Assembly: GCA_018970245.1 (NCBI GenBank)
Contig: JAGWWT010000007.1
Coordinates: forward strand, 1 to 53,579
Source of the DNA: Patescibacteria group bacterium
Lineage (GTDB): Bacteria; Patescibacteriota; Minisyncoccia; Phycocordibacterales; PALSA-1337
Direction of reading: 5' to 3'
Length of the DNA stretch: 53,579 nucleotides
The stretch's first letter is position 1; each line of letters begins with the position of its first letter. The position numbers were made by a program, and so were the translations under genes. Below, in pieces: positions 7,291-34,773 of this stretch. A model generated the notes under the pieces. The model worked only from the letters and a program-made list of their open reading frames with translations, made no database searches and had not been told where the DNA came from.

Positions 7291-10200
7291 ATGAGCGCCG
7301 TTCTTGATTATGTCCGTTCCAAAGATCCCCGCCTCAAAGACGTTGGGGATGATGAATTAACACTGTACCTCGCCGACAAGAAGCCTGACTTTCTTAAGGA
7401 CTCAGATTTCAAAAGCGAGTTCGAGAGAGTTGTCGCGAAGAAAAGTGTTGATTTGGCGCAACGTGGGATCGGTGGGTTCTTGAAAGTTTTGACGAATCCT
7501 GCGGCTGGGGAAGCTGCTCAGGCTGGTCGAGAGCAAATCGAGGCGGAAAGAGCCGAGCCGAAGTTCATTACTCCTCGCCAACCGGCAACGGGAGAAATGT
7601 CCACCACATACGGTGGACCTCCGAAGCACGTTGCGGGTTTTCGAGAAACAATCGCGCCTGTTGAGGAGGAATTATCCAATCCGAGAATAACGGCGCCAAG
7701 GTTCACCATCTCTCCGAAAGACAACCCTGCGTTGGCTATTGGAAAAGAGGCTGTAAATATTGCACTTGGGGTGCCTGAATTTTTCACATCAACGGCAGGA
7801 ATAGCCAGTGCGGTCACGGGTGCAGTCGCTCCGGTTGCGACCGCTGGGGCATTCACCGCCGACATGCTCAATTCTCTCGGGCAACAGATTCAAGAGACTC
7901 ACAAGAATTGGACCCAACTTGACCGGAATCAAAAGCTCAAGGCCATCACGGATATTGCTGGAACGGGCGTGTTTGCTGCCTTGTTGGGCCACGGAACATA
8001 CAGGGGGATTAGGCCGAAGGCCGGAACCGTGGCTCCAGGCCAAGAGCCGACGATCCACACTCCGCCACAGGATCCGCAACAGCAACTCAAGAATGCGGCA
8101 AAAAATGCCGAGCCAGTTGCCCCGATGACGGCAGCGGCGGTTGAGGAGCAGGCCAAGGGTGAGCCTCGTTTTCTACAGGAAGGCACCGAAGACCTTTCAA
8201 CGCGTCCTTTTATAACCCAGGGAACTCCTAAAACGCCCCAGGAATCGCCGGAAGCGAAATCCGGGGTGTTGACCCAATCGGAACCGGAAAAGCCGCAAGC
8301 CACCCCTAAAGCGCAAGAAGGCACCCCGTCAGAATCGGCAGTCACATCCGACCGAATCACGGCAGCCTCCTACACAAATCCCGAAACTGGGAAAACAACG
8401 ACCGGCGAAAACCACATTGAAGCGGCAAATGCGCAAGGCGTTAAGGCTCCAAAGATCCCGACCGAAAGACACGGAGACGAATACGGTTTTGAGGTTATCA
8501 ACACGGAAACCGGCGAAAAGCGGTATGTGTCGCGGGATGAGGCGGAATTAATCGCCAGGGCCAACGGACAGCTTTTGAATGAGCCTCAGAGAGGGGCTTT
8601 ACACTCCGACGAAGTTGAGTTCTATAAACCTAAACCAAAGGAAGAAAATGCCAGCGAAGTCAGCCCGACAGCAGCGGTTCATGGCGATGTGCAGCCACAA
8701 CCCGGAGAAGGCTCACGGGAAGTGCCCAAGCCACAAAGTAGCGGAGGAGTTCAGCCACAAGCCGAAGGGGGGCTATCCGAAGCACAAAAATCCGAAGCAT
8801 CCGAGAAACCGGATGTAGCTTTTCCAAAGCGACCGGAATCCATTCTCACAAAAACTAAAGGTTTAAAAGGCAAAGCGTTGAAAGACGCGTTCGCTGAAGA
8901 GCGTGAGAAGTGGAAGAAATATGATGAGGATTTGAAGGCTTGGGAAGCAGCACAGCCTCAGAATAAGGGGATTGTTTTCAGGAGCGACACGGGGACGCAT
9001 TACGCCGTGACTCGCGACCCGGGAGGCGGGTGGAGAGTTACCACCTTCTCTAAGCTTTTTAAAGACGATCAACGCCTCGCACCTTGGGGACATGAGTTGT
9101 TCCCAAGCCGCTACGAAGCCCTGAAGTCGGTTGCAAGGTTCGGAAACGAACTGACCGACAAGCTTCCGGAGATAATGACGGAGGAGGACATTTCCCAAAG
9201 AAACAAACATAATGAACGCGACAGGATAAAAGAGCAGTTCCAGAAGGCTTTATCCACCGAGAGCATGAAGGGGGACAAGACCGCTGGCGTTAATGTTTAC
9301 AGCGATGATCGGGGAATTCATTCCATTGGAAATCCGCAGGACATTTTTTCTGGAGGGAAGGCCCCCGAAGGCCTGAAGGTGTCAACCGTTGGCGTGAATG
9401 GGATGACCGGTGAGCTTCGACTGGACCAATCCACCTGGGGGGAAGGCGTTGATAAGGCTAAAATAATCGACCAGCTTAAAGACGCGGGATTAAAAGAAGA
9501 AAGCCCCGCACAGTCGAGCGATGCCCCACCGGAGCAGAGCGCCCTGGCTGGCGGGACCGGAGGGACTGTCGCGCCTCCTGAGAAAAAAGGCAAGACGCGA
9601 GTTTCGATAGCTTCCGGGAGCCGTCGCCGGTTCGCTGCCGAAACACAGCTTAACGGACCCGACATCCTTTCGTGGATGGAGGAGAACATGAAAATGCTCT
9701 CCAAGTCGGCCGCAAAACGCCTTTGGGGGAAGGACAAGTTCCAGGCCAACAAATCTCTTTGGGACGACTCGGCGCCACTCGAAAGACCGCACCACAACAT
9801 TGTTTTTGATGATAGCGGCGAACCCCCAGATCGTGTGGCGCAAGCAGCTTACGAAGCTGGTTATCTCAAAGAGCCTTCCGTTAATGAGCTTCATGCCGCG
9901 ATGCAGGCCGCGAGCAAGGCGAGATCGAACGCCTTCGCGACAGCTAAACGCGAAGAAGCCTTCATGGCCGAGGAAGCCAAGCAGCATGAAGACTGGCTGA
10001 AGGCCACAGCCGAAGGCGAAGAACGCGTTTCAGCCGACCAACTCAAAGTCGGCGACATGATGGAAGTCGATGGTGAGCGCGTGGAAGTCACTGGCGTTGA
10101 CGCTGACACTGGAGACGTAACGCTTAAAGACGGCAGGAAGTTTGGAACGCAGAAGATTTCAGAGGGGCAGTCGATTCACGTTGAAAAATACGAACCCACG

Positions 10201-13200
10201 AAGGAAGAGGATATTGGGTTTGGAACTGAACCCGAGCCGGAGCCTCAACCCGAACCAAAACCAGAGCCTGATAAGGCACCCGAGACTCCTCCTTCAGAGC
10301 CCACAAAGCCTGCCGTTGAACCCAAGCCAAAAGTTCAAGAACGCGCCTTAACTAAGGCCGAGCAAGATGAGTTTCAAGATTTGAGCATTAAAGCCCGTCG
10401 CGCCAGGGAAGAGGGTGGAGAGCCTTTGACCACGGAAGAAACCAAGCGTTATGACGAGTTGACCTCTGCGGCGGGACAATTTGAGTTGCTTGGTGAAGAT
10501 TCTCCCAGCGGAATCAAATCCAGAATTTCTCAGTTAAAAGAGAAGGTTGATCAACTAGAGCGTTTGCGTGTTAGGACGCAGGAACGAGCTTTTGAATCCC
10601 GCCATCGAAGGGATGAGCTTTTCAAAGAGGCTGTAACCTATGACAACGAAGCCAAGAAAATCCGTGAGGAAATTCGGGAGCTGGAAAAACAGTTGCCGAA
10701 AGAAGAGCCGAAGGTGGAGGCCAAGGGTGAGCAACCGAAGTCGGAACATTATCAAGGCCCGGGGGATTTAAATCCTCCGAAGTTCGCGACCGGAACAATG
10801 GTTGTTGCTGGAGAAGGAGCGACGGCAAGAGAGGGTGAGATTGCTGGCACGGGACCAAAGAAGCCCGGTGAAGAGCAGACGTACTTTGTTAAAACCAATC
10901 TCGGAGAGGTGCTTTACCCGGAGAGCAAACTGAAGGAGAAGCCTCCCAAACCCGTCACCCCGCAGACCTCCGCGACCGCGATCACTGAGCCGTCACAAAA
11001 GTACCGCATCAAAAACGCCGGACCTCAGTTGCACACTCTGGTTGAGCGCCTTCCAGCATCAGAGGTTGAAATCGCGAATGGCGAACAGCCAGTTCGTATT
11101 AAGAATGAAAAGACTGGAGAAGAATCCGTCGTTCTTGAAGCTCAACTTCAGCCGGTTAAAGAACGTAGCGCCGAAGAAAGGGCGGCGTCCAAAGGCCCAA
11201 CCAAGAAAGAATTGGATGACGAGCTTCGCCGTTTGGGGATGGATCCTTCGTCGTTTAAGAGCATGGGCGAAAAGAAGGAAGCGATTCGACGGGCGAAGTT
11301 GAAAGGCCCCGGATCGCCATCTGTCTATCAAGGACCGGATCCAAAAGCGCAGATTGAACAACTTGAAGAATCGTTCCGGAACATCGAAGGCAAGAAGGTT
11401 CCGCTGGGGCAAAAGATAAAGGAGGCTTTCGACGTTGGTGAAAAACTCGCAGCCGGTAAAGACGCGGTTTCAAGAGCCGTTGCGGGCTTAAAGTCAACTG
11501 GAGATTACATTATCCGGCAGTGGAAAGGATACGACACTCTGGATGATTTGAAGCGGGCCAAGGGGGAGCTTTCGGCCGAAGTTGAAATGCGAGGGTGGAG
11601 AGTGCGTAAGTTCGCCAAGCAGGTTTTGAAGGCCATACCAGATCGCGGCCAACGGGCCGCAATAGCCAAGTGGGTTGATGCTGGTGGAGATCAAAACGAA
11701 CTCCATTGGGGCTTCATGCAGACCACTCCTGAGTATCAGCAGGCTTACGCTGATGCCATGCACCTCTCGGGAGACGCGCTGACCGCCGCCCAAAACATTC
11801 GAAACTTTTTCGAGTCACGTCTTCAGGAGGCAATCGATGCCGGTGTTTTGGAGTCCGGAGTTGATGATTATATCCACCGCATTTACGAGAAGGATCCAAA
11901 GATGGCGCAGCAGATGGCGGCTTATGCACAATCTGGAATCCTTAGCCGAAATCCTTCGCTGGCCAAGAAACGCATCTTCCAACTTGATTGGGAGGCTGAG
12001 CGCCTCGGGTTTCGTCCGGTTCAAGACTTCCTGCCGCGAATCACTGCGTATGAGACCAGCCTTTCACGCGCCATTGCCGCTCGTAACTTCGTCAAGAGGG
12101 TCATCGGATTTACCGACGAAAATGGCAACAAGATTTCAGGGCTTCGCGCTCAAGACGGGAGGCCGATTATCGATGTCGCTGGCCTTGGCGTACCGATTGA
12201 AAACGAGGAAGGTGTTCGCGAGGCGACGTTGATAAACCCATCGTTCAAACCGCGTGAGACGAATAACCCGCTAAACGAAAGGAGCGACTACAAGGAACGC
12301 CCCGAATACTCCGCGCTCCGAAAGTGGAAGTGGGCAACAACGGACGCGGAAGGAAAACCAATTTATGTTCAAGGTAACGTTGTCATTCACCCGCAATACG
12401 TGGAAAGAATCGACGCGCTACTTAAGCCATCGTCGCTAAGGTTCACTGAAAACAAAGTTAAACGTGGCTTGTTCCGAACCGCGATCGGGGTTTCGAGCAC
12501 GGTAAAACAAACCATGCTGGACTTTTCTGGTTTTCATCAGGTTCAAATCGCCGTTCATGCTTTGGAGCACAGGGTAAATCCGTTGAATCTTGAGAAGGAT
12601 ATTGATTTCACAAATCCCGACGTTGATGGATTGATGAAGGGTGGGGTCACGCTTGGGGGAGAATATCGCGAGGCTCACGCAGGAGAAGGTTTGGTTGGAC
12701 GGTCTGTGTCGCGGTTGATCCCGGGCCTGTCGGACGTGATGCAGAGCTACCACGATTACCTTTTCCAGGATTTCATCCCCAGGATCAAGATGACGATGGC
12801 GCTTCACGCGCTGGAGAGAAACAAGGTCCGGTTTAAAGATGAACTCGCCTCCGGTAAGCTCAAGACGGACGAGGTTTACCACATGACAGCGAATCAGGCC
12901 AACGCCGCTTTCGGCGAGTTGAATTACACGATGTTGGAGCGCAGCAAAACAGCGCAAGACCTGTCCCGCATAATCGCTTTGGCACCCGACTTCCTTGAAG
13001 CTCGCGGAAGATTTGTCGCCCAGGCTTTTACAAAGCACGGCAATGAGCAACGGACGGCTTTGATTCTTGGGGCGTTGACGATGTATGCGATCGCCAGGGT
13101 TGGAAACCAACTTTTGGACGGGCAGCCACACCTTGAGCCTGAGAACCTTTTCAGCATGGTTTACAAAGGCAAGTCATACAGCCTTCGAACGGTCCAAGGG

Positions 13201-13911
13201 GATATTCTCCATTTGATTGACAAGCCTGTTCAATTCTGGATGTCTCGCCTAAATCCGGTTTATGGCAGAACGATGCTCGAAATGGCCACCGGGCGTGATT
13301 ACTTCGGCCGAAAACGATCGGCGCTCGAACAGATTTGGGACGGCGTTTCCACAATGATGCCCGTGTCTCTTCGCTCCAGCCGAGAGAGAAGCATCTGGGA
13401 GTCTATCGCAAATGGAATGGGGATAAACGCTCGTCGCTACTCCGACACTGATGAGGCTTTCAAGCTCGCCCAGAAATGGAAGGACCAACACGGTGTTGGA
13501 ATGAAAAGCGAGTTTATTTACGACTCAAACAAGGATCCGCTTCGACCGTTAAAGCTGGCCATCTCGAATGCCGACGACGCCGGGGCAACACGCGAGATAA
13601 AGAATCTCGTCGATTCAAAGAAATACACGGTTTCAAAGCTCAACGATTATTTCTCCCGGTACGCGGCAATGCCATTCACTGGCTCGCAGGAGAACGATCG
13701 CAAGTTTGTGCAGACTCTTGACTCGGACCAGAAGAAGACGGTTGAGGCGGCGAGGGAGCACAAGAAGACGATTCGATCGTTGTACCAGAAGGCTCGGGAG
13801 AAATACTTTGCGGCTTTGCACTCAAAACCCGAACGAGCCCAGACCGCTCCGCCTGAAGACGCGGATCAGCCGGAGACGAACCCCGAGCCCGCTTTGGCGC
13901 CTTCGCCTTAA
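7291..13911 (+). CDS. Giant internal virion/ejection protein (2206 aa)
   Basis: A single intact frame of 2206 residues. Residues 1-70 look like a short globular head (MSAVLDYVRSKDPRL). A hydrophobic Ala/Gly-rich stretch at about 155-195 could insert into membrane. Long Pro/Glu/Lys/Gln low-complexity linkers run through about 250-520 and 970-1025. A coiled coil lies at about 1070-1135. From about 1380 to the end the protein is helical with many Trp and Arg. Size, position at the end of the tail operon and linker architecture match the large polyvalent ejection proteins of podoviruses, but I see no clear peptidase, transglycosylase or polymerase motif. Part of a linker is also read in another frame by a small gene (8648-8818). 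The 3' end overlaps an antisense gene. Confidence 0.6.
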   Translation: MSAVLDYVRSKDPRLKDVGDDELTLYLADKKPDFLKDSDFKSEFERVVAKKSVDLAQRGIGGFLKVLTNPAAGEAAQAGREQIEAERAEPKFITPRQPATGEMSTTYGGPPKHVAGFRETIAPVEEELSNPRITAPRFTISPKDNPALAIGKEAVNIALGVPEFFTSTAGIASAVTGAVAPVATAGAFTADMLNSLGQQIQETHKNWTQLDRNQKLKAITDIAGTGVFAALLGHGTYRGIRPKAGTVAPGQEPTIHTPPQDPQQQLKNAAKNAEPVAPMTAAAVEEQAKGEPRFLQEGTEDLSTRPFITQGTPKTPQESPEAKSGVLTQSEPEKPQATPKAQEGTPSESAVTSDRITAASYTNPETGKTTTGENHIEAANAQGVKAPKIPTERHGDEYGFEVINTETGEKRYVSRDEAELIARANGQLLNEPQRGALHSDEVEFYKPKPKEENASEVSPTAAVHGDVQPQPGEGSREVPKPQSSGGVQPQAEGGLSEAQKSEASEKPDVAFPKRPESILTKTKGLKGKALKDAFAEEREKWKKYDEDLKAWEAAQPQNKGIVFRSDTGTHYAVTRDPGGGWRVTTFSKLFKDDQRLAPWGHELFPSRYEALKSVARFGNELTDKLPEIMTEEDISQRNKHNERDRIKEQFQKALSTESMKGDKTAGVNVYSDDRGIHSIGNPQDIFSGGKAPEGLKVSTVGVNGMTGELRLDQSTWGEGVDKAKIIDQLKDAGLKEESPAQSSDAPPEQSALAGGTGGTVAPPEKKGKTRVSIASGSRRRFAAETQLNGPDILSWMEENMKMLSKSAAKRLWGKDKFQANKSLWDDSAPLERPHHNIVFDDSGEPPDRVAQAAYEAGYLKEPSVNELHAAMQAASKARSNAFATAKREEAFMAEEAKQHEDWLKATAEGEERVSADQLKVGDMMEVDGERVEVTGVDADTGDVTLKDGRKFGTQKISEGQSIHVEKYEPTKEEDIGFGTEPEPEPQPEPKPEPDKAPETPPSEPTKPAVEPKPKVQERALTKAEQDEFQDLSIKARRAREEGGEPLTTEETKRYDELTSAAGQFELLGEDSPSGIKSRISQLKEKVDQLERLRVRTQERAFESRHRRDELFKEAVTYDNEAKKIREEIRELEKQLPKEEPKVEAKGEQPKSEHYQGPGDLNPPKFATGTMVVAGEGATAREGEIAGTGPKKPGEEQTYFVKTNLGEVLYPESKLKEKPPKPVTPQTSATAITEPSQKYRIKNAGPQLHTLVERLPASEVEIANGEQPVRIKNEKTGEESVVLEAQLQPVKERSAEERAASKGPTKKELDDELRRLGMDPSSFKSMGEKKEAIRRAKLKGPGSPSVYQGPDPKAQIEQLEESFRNIEGKKVPLGQKIKEAFDVGEKLAAGKDAVSRAVAGLKSTGDYIIRQWKGYDTLDDLKRAKGELSAEVEMRGWRVRKFAKQVLKAIPDRGQRAAIAKWVDAGGDQNELHWGFMQTTPEYQQAYADAMHLSGDALTAAQNIRNFFESRLQEAIDAGVLESGVDDYIHRIYEKDPKMAQQMAAYAQSGILSRNPSLAKKRIFQLDWEAERLGFRPVQDFLPRITAYETSLSRAIAARNFVKRVIGFTDENGNKISGLRAQDGRPIIDVAGLGVPIENEEGVREATLINPSFKPRETNNPLNERSDYKERPEYSALRKWKWATTDAEGKPIYVQGNVVIHPQYVERIDALLKPSSLRFTENKVKRGLFRTAIGVSSTVKQTMLDFSGFHQVQIAVHALEHRVNPLNLEKDIDFTNPDVDGLMKGGVTLGGEYREAHAGEGLVGRSVSRLIPGLSDVMQSYHDYLFQDFIPRIKMTMALHALERNKVRFKDELASGKLKTDEVYHMTANQANAAFGELNYTMLERSKTAQDLSRIIALAPDFLEARGRFVAQAFTKHGNEQRTALILGALTMYAIARVGNQLLDGQPHLEPENLFSMVYKGKSYSLRTVQGDILHLIDKPVQFWMSRLNPVYGRTMLEMATGRDYFGRKRSALEQIWDGVSTMMPVSLRSSRERSIWESIANGMGINARRYSDTDEAFKLAQKWKDQHGVGMKSEFIYDSNKDPLRPLKLAISNADDAGATREIKNLVDSKKYTVSKLNDYFSRYAAMPFTGSQENDRKFVQTLDSDQKKTVEAAREHKKTIRSLYQKAREKYFAALHSKPERAQTAPPEDADQPETNPEPALAPSP
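8648..8818 (+). CDS. Small DUF3008-like protein overprinted inside the giant gene
   Basis: 56 residues in the +2 frame relative to window start, fully inside the 2206-residue gene. It starts MPAKSARQQRFMAM, the hallmark opening of the DUF3008 type of small phage proteins (MPAKS-x-x-Q-x-x-F/L-M), and goes on with HNPEKAHGKCPS and KVAEEFSHKPKGGYPK, also in keeping. AAAGGAAG lies about 4-5 nt before the ATG, a better ribosome site than several neighbouring structural genes have. The overlapping stretch of the giant protein is a low-complexity Pro/Gln/Glu linker that could tolerate dual coding. The protein is basic and probably binds nucleic acid or packs in the head; its function is unknown. Confidence 0.6.
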   Translation: MPAKSARQQRFMAMCSHNPEKAHGKCPSHKVAEEFSHKPKGGYPKHKNPKHPRNRM

Positions 13912-25909: not shown

Positions 25910-27493
25910 ATGGCACCAAAAACAGTCAAAAAGCATACGCCATTCCGGCAAGCCCGTAATGCTGGCGTGCCTATTGTCGCGATTGAATCGGCGGACCCGG
26001 CCGCGACAATGGACAAGTGCGCACAAGCCTTAAACGGCTCTCACGATATTACACCGCAATTGCGCTGGGATATCGTCAGGGGATTAACCCCGATCAATAA
26101 GCCGGGCGCCGTTGTGTTCTCCCGCATTGCCGGGCAATCTGAGGGAAGCGATCCAGTATTCCCGGATCCCGTTCTTTGCATGGCCAAGCTCGTGGAACAA
26201 CATGACAAGCTGTCCGTAACTCCGGAGGAGGATTGCGGTAAGCCCGATGAAGAGCAGCGGCATATTGGGTGCATCGTATACATGCTACATGCAAATCGAT
26301 GGCTTGATGAGTTGGCGCCGATGCAAGCCGTATGGAATATCCGGGACACTTGGAAAACGATCGGCTGTACGCTCGTTTTGATCGGTCCCACGATCAAACT
26401 GCCCTCTGAGCTTAAAAACGACGTTATCCTAATCTCTGAGCCGTTGCCGGGGCATGATGAACTTGATCGCATTGTCGGCCGTATCACCGGGGAAGAGGGC
26501 GCAAACCTGAAAGAGGAACAAATCGGAGATCGTGAGCTTGTGGTTGACACGATGTCCGGAACTTCGGCTTTTGGGGCGGAGCAAATTCTGTCTATGTCCC
26601 TGACTAAAGACGGGATTGACAATGATCAACTATGGGAGAGAAAGCGCAAGATGATCGAACAAACGCCGGGTCTGAAAGTGCGCAAGGTTGAAGGCACATT
26701 TGATGATCTTGGCGGAATGGAAAATCTAAAGCAGTATTTACGCGACATCTTGACTAGTGGGGTTTCGCCTATTCGCCTAATTGTCTTTCAGGACGAAATA
26801 GAAAAAGCGATCCAAGGCGCCACGGGCGGAGCGTTGGACGGCGGCACTTCAGCCGATCAATTAAAAGTTGTTTTAACGCTGATGGCCGATCGCAAAATGC
26901 CCGGCATAATCTTAGTTGGGCATGGCGGTTGCGGGAAAAGTGAGATTGCAACAGCAGCAGGAGCGATCGCTAAATGTCCCGTCATCGATTGGGACTTTGG
27001 CGCTATGAAAGAGGGAGTTGTCGGATCTTCAGAACACCGGATCCGGGAAGCCGTTGAGGTGGTAAAAGCTGTCAGCGATTGCAAGTGTCTTTTTATCGCG
27101 ACTTGTAACAAGATTGACAGCCTGCCACCAGAACTAAGGCGCCGGTACAAACTCGGCACTTTCTTTTGCGATCTTCCAACTCCGGAAGAGCAGGATAAGA
27201 TTTGGCGGATCTGGATGAAGAAGTTTTCGATCGAAAAGCAACCATTGCCCGAGTGCAACGGATGGACGGGCGCGGAGATTGCAGCGTGCTGTGAGGGCGC
27301 TTGGCGAACCGGAAAGACTTTGCGTCAAGCCTCAACTAAAGTTGTACCAGTCATTTTGAGCAACCCGGGCGCCGTCGAATCACTTCGGAAACTCGCGCAC
27401 AACTCATTTATTGATGCGAGCAAGGATCAGTATTACCAGTACTCTCCTAAGACTGTTGAACCGCAGAAAACCGGCCGCAAAATGGAGCTTTGA
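25910..27493 (+). CDS. AAA+ ATPase, Ycf46-like, with unusual motif order
   Basis: 527 residues. After an N-terminal alpha/beta domain resembling the degenerate N-part of Ycf46, the linker has FDDLGGMENLKQYLRD. Then comes a Walker-B-like block IVFQDEIEKAIQG (about 291-303) with DGGTSADQLKVVLTLMADR, and only after it Walker A GHGGCGKSEIA (337-347). Next are VVGSSEHRIREAVEVVKAV, sensor 1 FIATCN (395-400), and PPELRRRYKLGTFFCDLP (arginine finger region). Ordinary AAA+ proteins have Walker A before Walker B, so the beta3/alpha3 segment is transposed. Followed immediately by DUF1257 and DUF2997 genes, a pairing known for Ycf46/Ycf35-type sets. Substrate unknown. Confidence 0.85.
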   Translation: MAPKTVKKHTPFRQARNAGVPIVAIESADPAATMDKCAQALNGSHDITPQLRWDIVRGLTPINKPGAVVFSRIAGQSEGSDPVFPDPVLCMAKLVEQHDKLSVTPEEDCGKPDEEQRHIGCIVYMLHANRWLDELAPMQAVWNIRDTWKTIGCTLVLIGPTIKLPSELKNDVILISEPLPGHDELDRIVGRITGEEGANLKEEQIGDRELVVDTMSGTSAFGAEQILSMSLTKDGIDNDQLWERKRKMIEQTPGLKVRKVEGTFDDLGGMENLKQYLRDILTSGVSPIRLIVFQDEIEKAIQGATGGALDGGTSADQLKVVLTLMADRKMPGIILVGHGGCGKSEIATAAGAIAKCPVIDWDFGAMKEGVVGSSEHRIREAVEVVKAVSDCKCLFIATCNKIDSLPPELRRRYKLGTFFCDLPTPEEQDKIWRIWMKKFSIEKQPLPECNGWTGAEIAACCEGAWRTGKTLRQASTKVVPVILSNPGAVESLRKLAHNSFIDASKDQYYQYSPKTVEPQKTGRKMEL

Positions 27494-27496
27494 GCT

Positions 27497-27976
27497 ATGA
27501 GTCACCTAGTAGACATCAAATTAAACATTGGAACGGACGCGGACTCAATCGCGGCCGTCAAGCAAGCCTGTAAGGAAATGGGCTTGATCTTTAAAGAGGG
27601 TCAAAAGACCTATCGCTGGTACGGGCGATCGGTTGGCGATTATCCGTTGCCTCAAGGTTTTACTGAGGAGGATTTAGGCAAGTGCGATCACGCGATCGAG
27701 GTCCCGGGCGCCGGTTATGATATTGGCTTGGCGCGCCGGAAAGATGGCAAGGGTTATGCGCTCCTGTTCGACTTCTGGGGGCAAGGTAGGCCGATCCTGG
27801 AAAAACTAGGGGTTGCCCTTTCGGCTGATGGTAAGTCGGTCAAGAGCACTCGTTTTTCGCAGCTATACGGAGTTGCAAAGGCCGAGATCACGGCTCGCAA
27901 GCTGGGGCATTCGACGCAACGGCAGCACCTTAAAAACGGAACCATTAACGTTTTAATCACCGGATCAAGGCTATGA
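27497..27976 (+). CDS. DUF1257 (Ycf35-like) protein
   Basis: 159 residues. Opens MSHLVDIKLNIGTDADSIAA, the usual start of DUF1257/Ycf35, with KQACKEMGLIF and a Tyr/Gly-rich middle (YDIGLARRKDGKGYALLFDF). C-terminal part has LYGVAKAEITARKLG. Three bases after the ATPase stop, ATGA overlap to the DUF2997 gene. In plastids, cyanobacteria and some phages this family sits beside Ycf46 AAA+ genes; its activity is unknown. Confidence 0.85.
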   Translation: MSHLVDIKLNIGTDADSIAAVKQACKEMGLIFKEGQKTYRWYGRSVGDYPLPQGFTEEDLGKCDHAIEVPGAGYDIGLARRKDGKGYALLFDFWGQGRPILEKLGVALSADGKSVKSTRFSQLYGVAKAEITARKLGHSTQRQHLKNGTINVLITGSRL

Positions 27977-28167
27977 GCTTATCACGATCAATTGTCGTTT
28001 CCGTTTCTCCGGATGGAGAAGTCAAAGTTGAGGCTGTAGGCTTTAAGGGCGGTTCGTGCGAGAAAGCAACCCAAGCGATTGAGAAAGCTTTAGGCACTTC
28101 CGGACCAAGAACCAAGAAACCGGAGTATTTCCAGCAGAACACAAACCAGCAAAAAGCCGGGTTATGA
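27973..28167 (+). CDS. DUF2997 protein
   Basis: 64 residues: SRSIVVSVSPDGEVKVEAVG, then FKGGSCEKATQAIEKALG and KKPEYFQQN. This matches DUF2997 (I-x-V-x-x-x-P-D-G-x-V, G-x-S-C, K-P-E-Y-F). It completes the AAA+/DUF1257/DUF2997 trio. Coupled on both sides by overlapping start/stop codons, so the four proteins are probably made in fixed ratio. Confidence 0.85.
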   Translation: MSLSRSIVVSVSPDGEVKVEAVGFKGGSCEKATQAIEKALGTSGPRTKKPEYFQQNTNQQKAGL

Positions 28168-28412
28168 TCTGTCTTCAATTCGCCACCGATGGCACCGGAC
28201 GTGCTGTTTACACTGAAGAGTTACCCCTTGCTGAGCTTGGCTCGCTTAGCATGACGCGTGCTTCATCGGTGGAATACAACGAAACAACGCAACAATGGGA
28301 GGTAAGGCTAAGCAGCAACCCGGATCAAGTCGCATACTCTGATAAAAGCCGTAATGAGTGCATTAAATGGGAGGTAAACAAGTTAAACCAGAATCTAATC
28401 ATGGGCAATTAA
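28164..28412 (+). CDS. Conserved small phage protein, unknown
   Basis: 82 residues: MICLQFATDGTGRAVYTEEL, LAELGSLSMTRASSVEYNET, TQQWEVRLSSNPDQVAYSDK, ECIKWEVNKLN. This A-x-S-x-E-(F/Y)-N-x-x-T-x-x-W-E-V layout is one I associate with small phage proteins. ATGA overlap to DUF2997. Likely part of the cassette. Confidence 0.65.
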   Translation: MICLQFATDGTGRAVYTEELPLAELGSLSMTRASSVEYNETTQQWEVRLSSNPDQVAYSDKSRNECIKWEVNKLNQNLIMGN

Positions 28413-28423
28413 TCAAAAGAAAT

Positions 28424-28508
28424 CACGGCCGAACCTTGCCAAGTTGCGGCCGTGCATTCTGGGGATTAACTCCAGGGAACAACAAACCAAAAACAAGAAA
28501 GGATCAAA
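28424..28508 (+). promoter_or_regulatory. Hairpin leader with GAAAGGATCAAA copy 4
   Basis: CACGGCCG (28424-28431) pairs perfectly with CGGCCGTG (28447-28454), extended by AAC/GTT, then CTGG-CCAG-type stem, then GAAAGGATCAAA at 28497-28508 whose last A is the A of the ATG. Positioned to regulate the 347-residue gene separately from the upstream cassette. No U-run follows the stem, so it is unlikely to be a terminator. Confidence 0.45.
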
Positions 28509-29551
28509 TGAGCAGCACAATAAACACGATCGATGTCGGGCAATTTCAGAATTGCGTTTTCTTCTCTCTCACAGTCCGCAAGCCCGGGGTGCGTTGCAAG
28601 GTCAAGGACTTCGCCGCGCTGGAGACTTACCTCGAACAGTTGCACGCCGAAAACGGCAACGATGAAACCAGCGAACCGGCCGTAGAGTTGCCCAAAGGTT
28701 TCAAAGGCAATGGAGGCGGAGCGGTCAAGGTGACTAAACGGATCTTGCTTCCTAGGAAACCGACCAAAGAAGATCCGCGCCCCGATCCGTACGAGGCAGC
28801 CTGTACTTTCCTGAACGAAACAAAAGAGAAGCTTACCGGGCGTTTTGGCCGGGCACTTCCGAGCAAGATAAAAGAGGGGCTTTTTGTCGTTCGGAAAGAG
28901 TTAGTACAGGAGTTCGAAGATGAATTGCGGGCCAGTCTGGAGAAGCTTTCCGCAGAGTACTTGCCTGCCGTCAAGGGAGATTATGTCTTTTCCAAGGAAC
29001 GGGCACGCGGCACGCCGGTCAAGCAAGGCGGACTTGGCCCGCTTTACCGGGAAGCCGACTACCCTACGGCCGATGACTTTTGTGGATGCTTCGGGTTAGA
29101 GTGGCAATGGCTGGCACTTGGCGTGCCTGAAGATCTCCCGGCCGCATTGCGGGCGGAAGCGGCAGAGAAGTTAGAGCGACAATTCACGGAAGCGGCGGAA
29201 GAGGTCAAGCTTGCCCTCCGGGAAGCTTTTGCAGACCTGATTGATCACGCCACCGAAAAGCTTAAACCCGCCGCACCTGGGGAAAAGCAAGCAGTATTCA
29301 GAGACAGCATGATCGGGAACATTGCGCAATTCTGTCAGGTTTTCGAGTCTCGGAACCTGATGAACGACACCGATCTTGCTTCCCTGGTCGGGCAGGCTAA
29401 GCAATTGCTCACCGGGCTAAACCCGGATAGGTTGCGCAAGTACGCGAACGTCAGGCAGGAGACGCAAGAAAAGTTCGAGGCGATTAAGGCACAACTTGAC
29501 GCCATGATCACGGTCAAGAAAGGTCGCAAGTTCAATTTGTCAGAGGATTGA
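28508..29551 (+). CDS. DUF3150-like coiled-coil protein
   Basis: 347 residues from the ATG at 28508 behind leader copy 4; the longer upstream frame from 28367 overlaps the previous gene and was rejected. QFQNCVFFSLTVRKPGVRC begins a strand region. Next comes a helical charged body (FGRALPSKIKEGLFVVRKEL, LEKLSAEYLPAVKGDYVFSK), then FCGCFGLEWQWLALGVPEDL and a long helix pair ending in EEVKLALREAFADLIDHATE. It resembles DUF3150 proteins that accompany phage AAA+ ATPases. It ends 20 bp before a strong terminator and so is the last gene of the module. Confidence 0.55.
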   Translation: MSSTINTIDVGQFQNCVFFSLTVRKPGVRCKVKDFAALETYLEQLHAENGNDETSEPAVELPKGFKGNGGGAVKVTKRILLPRKPTKEDPRPDPYEAACTFLNETKEKLTGRFGRALPSKIKEGLFVVRKELVQEFEDELRASLEKLSAEYLPAVKGDYVFSKERARGTPVKQGGLGPLYREADYPTADDFCGCFGLEWQWLALGVPEDLPAALRAEAAEKLERQFTEAAEEVKLALREAFADLIDHATEKLKPAAPGEKQAVFRDSMIGNIAQFCQVFESRNLMNDTDLASLVGQAKQLLTGLNPDRLRKYANVRQETQEKFEAIKAQLDAMITVKKGRKFNLSED

Positions 29552-31228: not shown

Positions 31229-31939
31229 ATGACATTCGAGGAACTACAAAACAAAATCGGCGCACAAAATAAAGCTGATTGGCGACAATCTAAAGGCGGC
31301 GGCTGGCTTCACAAGTCGGCCAGAGTCGATGACGAAACCAGGATAACAGAGAACGCGATCGTTTTGGGTATCGTCTCCGGCAATGCGCAGGTCTCCGGCA
31401 ATGCGCAGGTCTCCGGCAATGCGTGGGTCTACGGCAATGCGTGGGTCTACGGCAATGCGCGGGTCTACGGCGATGCGCGGGTCTACGGCAATGCGCGGGT
31501 CTACGGCAATGCGCGGGTCTACGGCAATGCGCAGGTCTCCGGCAATGCGTGGGTCTCCGGCAATGCGCAGGTCTACGGCAATGCGCAGGTCTACGGCAAT
31601 GCGCAGGTCTACGGCAATGCGCGGGTCTCCGGCAATGCGCAGGTCTCCGGCAATGCGCGAGTCTCCGGCGATGCGCGGGTCTCCGGCGATGCGCTGGTCT
31701 ACGGCAATGCGCAGGTCTCCGGCGGTGCGTGGGAAAAATCCCCACTATTCATCATTGGATCCCGGTTCAGCCTGACAAACTGCAAGAAGGGGCACATTCA
31801 AATCGGTTGCGAATGCCATCCGTTCGCATGGTGGGAAGGCAAAGGCGGCAAGGAGTTGGCTAAAATGCACAGCTTTACTCCCGCAGAAATCAAGGAGTAT
31901 CGAGCCTACATCAAGCTGTTTAAGGCGATTGGAAAATGA
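31229..31939 (+). CDS. Hexapeptide-repeat beta-helix protein
   Basis: 236 residues. The N-terminal 45 are a small cap (TFEELQNKIGAQNKADWRQS), then 20 near-identical hexapeptides of form V-S/Y-G-N/D-A-Q/R/W between about residues 49 and 168, then SPLFIIGSRFSLTNCKKGHI and a C-terminal HPFAWWEGKGGKELAKMHSF. The repeats fit a left-handed beta-helix with one turn per three hexapeptides, as in YdcK- and transferase-like proteins. The C-terminal HPFAWWEG segment is an extra domain. Role unknown. The DNA repeat unit makes copy number easily variable. Confidence 0.75.
   Translation: MTFEELQNKIGAQNKADWRQSKGGGWLHKSARVDDETRITENAIVLGIVSGNAQVSGNAQVSGNAWVYGNAWVYGNARVYGDARVYGNARVYGNARVYGNAQVSGNAWVSGNAQVYGNAQVYGNAQVYGNARVSGNAQVSGNARVSGDARVSGDALVYGNAQVSGGAWEKSPLFIIGSRFSLTNCKKGHIQIGCECHPFAWWEGKGGKELAKMHSFTPAEIKEYRAYIKLFKAIGK
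31373..31732 (+). repeat. 20 tandem 18-bp repeats inside the hexapeptide gene
   Basis: Twenty copies of GTCTNCGGCRATGCGNNG-type units, in frame. Copies differ by the S/Y codon (TCC or TAC) and the third residue (CAG, CGG, TGG). Not CRISPR: there are no spacers and the unit encodes protein. High identity suggests recent expansion by slippage or recombination. Confidence 0.95.
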
Positions 31940-33631: not shown

Positions 33632-33856
33632 ATGAGCGAAAACATTCCAGACAATCTCCGCGAGCAACTTTCCCACGCCGGTAAGAAGGGCATCAAAAAG
33701 ATGTCCAACGAAGAACGCGCCAAGGGCGGGCGAAGATCCCAGCGGAAGATCCCACATGAGGAAAGAGTGCGCCGTGGAAAGCTGGCGTGGCAAGCGAGGT
33801 TGCAGAAGGCTCGTGAACTGGCGGAGAAGATGACGCAGGAGGTTAAAGCGGTATGA
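33632..33856 (+). CDS. Basic small protein, unknown
   Basis: 74 residues: MSENIPDNLREQLSHAGKKG, KGGRRSQRKIPHEERVRRGK, ending in helix ARELAEKMTQEVKAV. Very basic, Gly/Arg/Lys-rich, so probable nucleic-acid binding. First gene behind the candidate promoter, ATGA overlap to RNA ligase. Confidence 0.6.
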   Translation: MSENIPDNLREQLSHAGKKGIKKMSNEERAKGGRRSQRKIPHEERVRRGKLAWQARLQKARELAEKMTQEVKAV

Positions 33857-34773
33857 TTCATTCCTATCCTTCGATTTACAATCTCGGACACGCGGCCATC
33901 GTCGATCTTCTCAAAGGCCCAGTTATCGTCGAGGAAAAAATTGACGGAAGCCAATTTAGTTTCTGGAAGCGGGCAGACGGCGAAGTTGAATGCCGATCCA
34001 AGGGGGCGCCTATCAACATGCTGGCCCCGGAGGGAATGTTCAAGGCCGCAGTAAAGACAGTCCTAGAAATTGCCACACGAATGAGGCCGGACGTTGTTTA
34101 TCGCGGGGAATATCTCGCCGGTCCACATCACAACGCTCTGACCTATAGCCGTGTTCCAAGCGGAAACATTATCATATTTGATGTGAACCCAGGTCTTGAA
34201 ACGTACTTGGATGCAGAATCAAAGAGAAGTATGGCGGCAGAGCTTGGGCTTGAGTGCGTTCCCGTTCTGTTCATCGGAGTTGTTTCCGGAATCGAACAAT
34301 TCAGAAAACTTCTTGATACCGAATCCGTTCTTGGTGGGCAGAAAATCGAAGGCGTAGTCATTAAGCCTGCTGCTTACAATTTGTTCGGCAGGGACAAAAA
34401 GGTTTTGATGGGGAAGTTTGTATCTGAATCGTTCCGAGAGGTTCAAGCAAAGGCATGGGATTCAGAACACAGGACAAAAGGACCGCAAGAAATACTGTCG
34501 GCGCTACAGTCACGCTATGGCACATCGGCCCGTTGGAATAAAGCCCTAATCCATCTGAGAGAGCGCGGGGAAATTGAGAACGATCCTCGCGACATCGGAA
34601 AATTAATGAAAGAGGTCCCCGAAGATGTTCTCAAGGAGTGCGCTGAAGACATCAGAAAGGATTTGTTTGAGTGGGCGTGGCCGCAACTCCGGCGAATGCT
34701 AGCAAGGGGGCTTCCTGAATGGTATAAGGAAGAGCTTTTGAAGAAGCAATTCGAAAACACTACAGCGGTATGA
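33853..34773 (+). CDS. RNA ligase (T4 Rnl2-type)
   Basis: 306 residues. Motif I is VEEKIDGSQFSFW with catalytic Lys (residue about 33), followed by ECRSKGAPINM, VYRGEYLAGPHHNA (motif III), GQKIEGVVIKPA (motif IV, E-G-V-V-I-K) and a VLMGKFVSESF block (motif V). The C-terminal part is helical. It seals RNA ends, likely tRNAs or mRNAs cut by host anticodon nucleases. Starts with ATGA overlap to the previous gene. Confidence 0.9.
   Translation: MIHSYPSIYNLGHAAIVDLLKGPVIVEEKIDGSQFSFWKRADGEVECRSKGAPINMLAPEGMFKAAVKTVLEIATRMRPDVVYRGEYLAGPHHNALTYSRVPSGNIIIFDVNPGLETYLDAESKRSMAAELGLECVPVLFIGVVSGIEQFRKLLDTESVLGGQKIEGVVIKPAAYNLFGRDKKVLMGKFVSESFREVQAKAWDSEHRTKGPQEILSALQSRYGTSARWNKALIHLRERGEIENDPRDIGKLMKEVPEDVLKECAEDIRKDLFEWAWPQLRRMLARGLPEWYKEELLKKQFENTTAV

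Follow-up and report, generated by a model that had tools for sequence, protein, structure and literature searches.

The window, which is the whole stretch of 53,579 nucleotides analysed here, encodes a Ycf46-like AAA+ ATPase in which Walker B comes before Walker A. As judged from the sequence, two β-α units of the second AAA+ domain are exchanged, so that β3-α3 is followed by β1-α1-β2-α2 and then by β4. Walker B (LIVFQDEIEK) is thus found at residues 290-299, Walker A (GHGGCGKS) at 337-344 and sensor 1 (IATCN) at 396-400, and the strand and helix behind Walker A lead straight into sensor 1. To our knowledge Walker A, Walker B and sensor 1 always occur in one fixed order in AAA+ ATPases. This classical linear order is seen neither in the window ATPase nor in its family. 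The classical motifs are nevertheless present in the protein, namely Walker A of the GxxxxGK[S/T] type, Walker B of the hhhhDE type, the sensor 1 asparagine and, later in the chain, an arginine finger. An earlier, sequence-only reading of the window had described the protein as a Ycf46-like ATPase; this is right when it comes to ancestry, but the position of its Walker B unit, in front of Walker A, sets it apart from ordinary AAA+ proteins of the Ycf46 type. The ATPase gene is part of a conserved phage module together with genes encoding a DUF1257 protein, a DUF2997 protein, an 82-residue protein and a DUF3150-family protein (Table 1).

Table 1. Genes of the module and segments of the ATPase, with positions in the window
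Feature	Coordinates	Strand	Basis and remarks
Permuted Ycf46-like AAA+ ATPase (P0001), 527 aa	25910..27493	+	ORF; family-wide motif order
N-terminal region, residues 12-277	25943..26740	+	Degenerate D1-like domain and linker to the second domain; without Walker motifs
Block B, residues 289-330	26774..26899	+	β3-α3 with Walker B; breakpoints, AlphaFold2 strand and helix, pairwise gaps
Block C, residues 331-391	26900..27082	+	β1-α1-β2-α2 with Walker A GHGGCGKS (DNA 26918-26941)
Block D, residues 392-506	27083..27427	+	β4 with sensor 1 (IATCN), arginine finger region (RR 411-412), β5 and helical lid
DUF1257 protein, 159 aa, long MSH type	27497..27976	+	Kinship with PF06868 members; AlphaFold2 model
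DUF2997 protein, 64 aa, Cys type	27973..28167	+	PF11211, E 2.8e-16
82-aa protein, conserved nameless family	28164..28412	+	Homologues adjoin DUF2997 in many loci
DUF3150-family protein	28508..29551	+	Start from alignment and a ribosome-site-like AAGGATCAA before the ATG

The permuted ATPase and its relatives

Standard domain models match the permuted ATPases only piecewise, and such cases are therefore easily overlooked. The Pfam AAA model matches the window ATPase with its first half only (positions 1-63 of 131), and the Ycf46-like PHROG 8638 gives four pieces that are out of order, with no colinear full-length match. The reverse comparison is equally clear. When canonical relatives are compared with a model of the permuted family, the pieces follow each other in the order 5-251, 299-358, 260-299 and 361-472 of the model, abutting and nearly seamless. 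The relatives compared were those of RHph_I4, HJ05, RcKickapoo, SM1, Catdawg, JP1, the satellite Javan368, plasmids and cellular genes. The N-terminal region (model positions 5-251) is homologous to that of the canonical Ycf46-like ATPases.

An AlphaFold2 model of the ATPase was made from an alignment of 23 sequences (mean pLDDT 83.8). It has strands at residues 290-294, 332-337 and 393-399 and a helix at 313-327, and the strands place the three cut points at the starts of β3, β1 and β4. The predicted second domain superimposes on p97 D2 (6g2v) with a Z-score of 16.7 and an rmsd of 2.6 Å over 200 residues, while the whole model matches p97 D1-D2 with a Z-score of 18.4 and an rmsd of 6.3 over 398 residues. 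The ATPase is thus predicted to be a p97-like D1-D2 protein with an AAA+ fold, and its N-terminal half looks like a degenerate D1 domain. In the parallel sheet of the general AAA+ fold the strands β3, β1 and β4 start on the opposite side from the nucleotide. The exchange of the units should for this reason rewire loops only and keep the ATP site, with block B in the putative place of β3.

The permuted order was found in 102 ORFs among the sequences fetched, leaving 81 after dereplication at 90% identity. Searching viral contigs with P0001 or P0006 as single sequences gave no match, and alignments were required. An order-blind scan of these contigs, using patterns outside the swapped region, detected 134 relatives of the ATPase, 80 of which were kept. 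Acidobacteriota genomes hold up to four strong copies each. The cultured Tunturiibacter phage Tunturi_3, whose genome is complete, encodes a permuted ATPase 32% identical to that of the window, followed by DUF1257 and DUF2997. As some contamination is present in the metagenome bin that supplied the window, the order could have been ascribed to an assembly error or a local rearrangement of this contig, the real gene being canonical or broken. The homologues refute this: at identities of 29-46%, the same order is seen with intact frames in the complete genome of a cultured phage and in more than 100 contigs of many different data sets, which brings the probability of such an error close to nil.

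The lysine of Walker A, the Asp-Glu pair of Walker B, the sensor 1 residue Asn400 and Arg412 are kept in all 81 dereplicated members. The residue before the Walker A lysine is more variable, being glycine in 46 of the 81 and alanine, serine or cysteine in the other 35, and the latter residues could alter ATP binding. Both MCM and RavA ATPases are active with an alanine in this position. The pore-loop residue of the permuted members is mostly leucine and not aromatic.

The closest unpermuted ATPases are encoded by a plasmid of Candidatus Manganitrophus and by 26 viral contigs. The plasmid contains the operon AAA-DUF1257-DUF2997-DUF3150 with canonical motif order, and most of the viral contigs have the same neighbour genes. 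A BLASTP alignment of the window ATPase and the plasmid ATPase (26% identity) displays a gap of 41 residues at 288-328 and another of 40 residues after 391, corresponding to the positions of block B in the permuted and the canonical protein, respectively. A tree of 63 ATPases was built from model columns and is independent of block order, the model itself having been fitted to the permuted family, which limits the analysis; support is 100/100 for the permuted clade, 98/97 for the canonical clade with the same operon and 94/84 for the branch joining the two. The permuted clade was also recovered in a separate tree (99/100). The simplest reading is that the permutation arose once, and that this happened inside an already existing module. 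A candidate for an intermediate with duplicated blocks, in L144, was rejected as an alignment artefact.

On the Manganitrophus plasmid the DUF1257 gene is divided between two ORFs that overlap (L117:6462-6892). One canonical ATPase relative (L143:4989-7312) is broken inside Walker B, where it ends with VVLFID, and about 930 bp follow before the frame resumes. This insert, perhaps an intron or a mobile element, has no Rfam match.

The module and its genomic context

The four ORFs for the ATPase, DUF1257, DUF2997 and the 82-residue protein are present and tightly coupled, as had been claimed from the sequence. The ATPase gene stops at 27493 and the ATG of the DUF1257 gene follows at 27497, so that the two nearly abut, while ATGA overlaps join DUF1257 to DUF2997 and DUF2997 to the 82-residue ORF. 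The DUF2997 protein scores 59.5 bits against PF11211, where the cut-off is 24.1. The DUF1257 protein has no Pfam match of its own, and is assigned through other members of its family, which match PF06868. A nearby DUF3150-like gene had also been proposed and is supported in the same way; the window protein has no direct match, but seven of 16 homologues match PF11348 (best 1e-8). The true start of this gene is probably at 28508 and not at 28367. Homologues of the 82-residue protein are found in the equivalent position in many loci, and also in canonical phages.

The neighbour counts come from 62 dereplicated loci in which the ATPase gene is flanked by 4 kb in each direction. Within 4 kb downstream, DUF1257 is found in 53, DUF2997 in 54, DUF3150 in 53 and the 82-residue protein in 35 of the loci. 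The corresponding upstream numbers are four, four, three and none. All three DUF genes occur together within 4 kb of the ATPase in 54 of the 62 loci when both flanks are considered, and no further gene family of comparable conservation was found in these neighbourhoods. Comparison of the downstream and upstream counts places the co-occurrence far above chance. The compact, conserved ATPase/DUF1257/DUF2997 cassette of the sequence-only reading, with its association beyond this genome, is thereby confirmed, and neither of the outcomes named as fatal to it, chance-level co-occurrence or homologues proving to be unrelated structural proteins, was observed. The four-gene core stands, while the boundary was drawn too short since DUF3150 is part of the module. 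The zinc-ribbon genes reported around the cassette amount, on the upstream side, to weak Pfam matches only.

The window contig is a phage, with PHROG matches to an exonuclease, a tail assembly protein and two DNA helicases, one of which is DnaB-like. It also encodes a β-solenoid repeat protein of the YdcK type (31229-31939; NAQVSGNAWVYG repeats, PF18836), an RNA ligase (33853-34773; PF09414, E 1.5e-14) and a 2206-residue ORF (7291-13911) without PHROG match. Five loci encode, some 4 kb downstream from the module, a protein that looks Ku-like on visual inspection of the sequence (for instance L011:14031-14864). The bin from which the contig (G000:C76, window 1-53579) was taken is 1.42 Mb with 4.4% contamination, genomes of the lineage are 0.4-1.1 Mb, and the ATPase gene is found in none of 59 relatives. 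Together these observations suggest that the phage contig may be mis-binned, and the host is uncertain.

Matched versions of DUF1257 and DUF2997

The DUF1257 and DUF2997 proteins are found in two versions. In version 1 a long DUF1257, mostly starting with MSH, is combined with a DUF2997 carrying GxxC (48 of 48 loci). In version 2 a short DUF1257 starting with MPC is combined with a DUF2997 that lacks cysteine and has a histidine in the same loop (26 of 26 loci); 25 of these 26 His-type proteins have at least four histidines near their end. The versions are thus matched in all 74 loci. Placed on the ATPase tree, they must have switched about 17 times. Six of six independent comparisons on well-supported branches agree (p 0.03). 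That the two proteins keep matching through this many switches indicates that they function as a pair.

The alignments show that in the loop of DUF2997 a cysteine has been lost and a histidine gained. An exact residue-for-residue exchange was considered and rejected, since the aligned histidine lies three positions before the cysteine. The matching of the versions hints at a metal or thiol site shared by DUF1257 and DUF2997. The main version has one cysteine and mostly one N-terminal histidine only. The AlphaFold2 model of DUF1257 (pLDDT 91.2) has no significant relative among PDB structures, the best match being KA1-like with a Z-score of 4.4, and roles for DUF1257 as an adaptor or in metal binding are guesses. 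In Synechocystis the genes encoding DUF2997, Ycf35 (DUF1257) and the ferredoxin Fed7 adjoin each other (PMC4284462), and in red algal plastids the presence of ycf35 and ycf46 tracks habitat, which the authors tie to iron (PMC5940233). One locus (L015:9530-9922) has a single ORF of 130 residues behind a permuted ATPase, apparently consisting of a short DUF1257-like stretch and a His-tailed DUF2997. Such a fusion would fit a joint action of the two.

Possible functions and known systems

Fold, motifs and operon together make it on balance probable that the module encodes an ATP-driven protein-remodelling machine of the p97/Ycf46 type, provided by the phage and working with a matched DUF1257-DUF2997 pair that possibly binds metal. 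The ATPase would form a hexamer, hydrolyse ATP and pull on or remodel a protein client. DUF1257 and DUF2997 would be an obligate matched pair acting as adaptor or client, their contact being probably at the Cys/His site, which could serve for metal binding or as a thiol, while DUF3150 and the 82-residue protein would be accessory subunits. A more far-reaching proposal is that the permuted proteins are a new lineage of active AAA+ ATPases, rebuilt once by the exchange of two units and maintained by selection in phages that infect Acidobacteriota and other hosts. They would drive a pair of DUF1257 and DUF2997 that forms a metal site with interchangeable cysteine and histidine ligands; this is possible, with the chances against it.

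The permuted domain might instead be a folded but inactive pseudo-ATPase serving as a scaffold for the DUF1257, DUF2997 and DUF3150 proteins. The lack of a glycine before the Walker A lysine in 43% of the members, the non-aromatic pore loop and an N-terminal domain already without motifs would all agree with this, but the invariance of the lysine, the Asp-Glu pair, the asparagine and the arginine, each in 81 of 81 divergent sequences, would be unexpected if hydrolysis were unimportant, and makes a pseudo-ATPase very unlikely. By analogy with the AAA subunits of the Mg- and Co-chelatases, the ATPase could load or remove metal, with DUF1257-DUF2997 carrying the metal and ATP hydrolysis driving its transfer. 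The Cys/His exchange and the His-rich ends of the DUF2997 variant point in this direction, as do the ferredoxin neighbour in cyanobacteria (PMC4284462) and a gene for a 4Fe-4S protein adjoining a related cassette in Paenarthrobacter. The small number of possible ligands in the main version does not, and no chelatase-like large subunit is conserved near the ATPase loci, leaving a metal machine of this kind unlikely.

In several genomes the module sits among phage genes for DNA metabolism, and there is a weak PHROG similarity to clamp loaders. An AAA+ protein acting on nucleic acids during phage DNA replication, as a helicase loader or in a clamp-loader-like manner, is still quite unlikely, as the best matches (p97, NVL/Rix7 and Vps4) act on proteins and replication genes are not consistently adjacent. 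The patchy distribution and several versions of what is an accessory phage module would suit a counter-defence or host-takeover system aimed at a host protein. Among the PADLOC defence systems, however, the ATPase matches only IetA and TRIP13, both weakly, and the partner proteins match none, so that nothing beyond generic AAA similarity connects the module to known defence or counter-defence. Plasmids carry it too, and cells have it in the form of canonical Ycf46-like genes; a counter-defence or host-takeover role is thus decidedly improbable. The protein-remodelling machine remains the preferred reading.

Searching 5.4 million open-access papers, a set with few subscription journals, brought up no account of AAA+, P-loop or Walker motifs in permuted order; DUF3150 is not mentioned there, while DUF1257 or DUF2997 turn up in three papers. 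The permuted family, with more than 100 members and intact catalytic residues, and its unpermuted sister in the same operon are a before-and-after pair that probes how far AAA+ mechanics depend on chain connectivity. The matched versions offer a lead on the joint role of DUF1257 and DUF2997, two widespread families with members in cyanobacteria and algal plastids as well.

The Manganitrophus plasmid and the 26 viral contigs are like the window in gene set and mostly in gene order, and have the nearest unpermuted ATPases, but differ in their canonical motif order. The Ycf46/phrog_8638 ATPases of RHph_I4, HJ05, RcKickapoo, SM1 and the satellite Javan368 share the N-terminal region and all AAA+ motifs with the window protein, and in the four first mentioned DUF1257 and DUF2997 follow downstream as in the window. 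These ATPases are canonical in order and give a single full-length PHROG match, compared to the four pieces of the window ATPase. No DUF3150 gene was detected adjoining the Ycf46/phrog_8638 phage ATPases. A gene for about 210 residues after the ATPase in RHph_I4, HJ05, SM1, RcKickapoo and JP1 was considered as its counterpart, and was rejected as a separate family without DUF3150 match. Like p97/Cdc48 with its D1 and D2, the window ATPase is predicted to have two AAA-type domains per chain, but both domains of p97/Cdc48 contain Walker motifs in standard order, while the first domain of the window ATPase has none. Reordered motifs in a preserved fold are known from other P-loop NTPases, the circularly permuted GTPases YlqF and YjeQ. 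These belong to another branch of the P-loop NTPases and display a circular permutation, while in the window ATPase two internal β-α units are exchanged.
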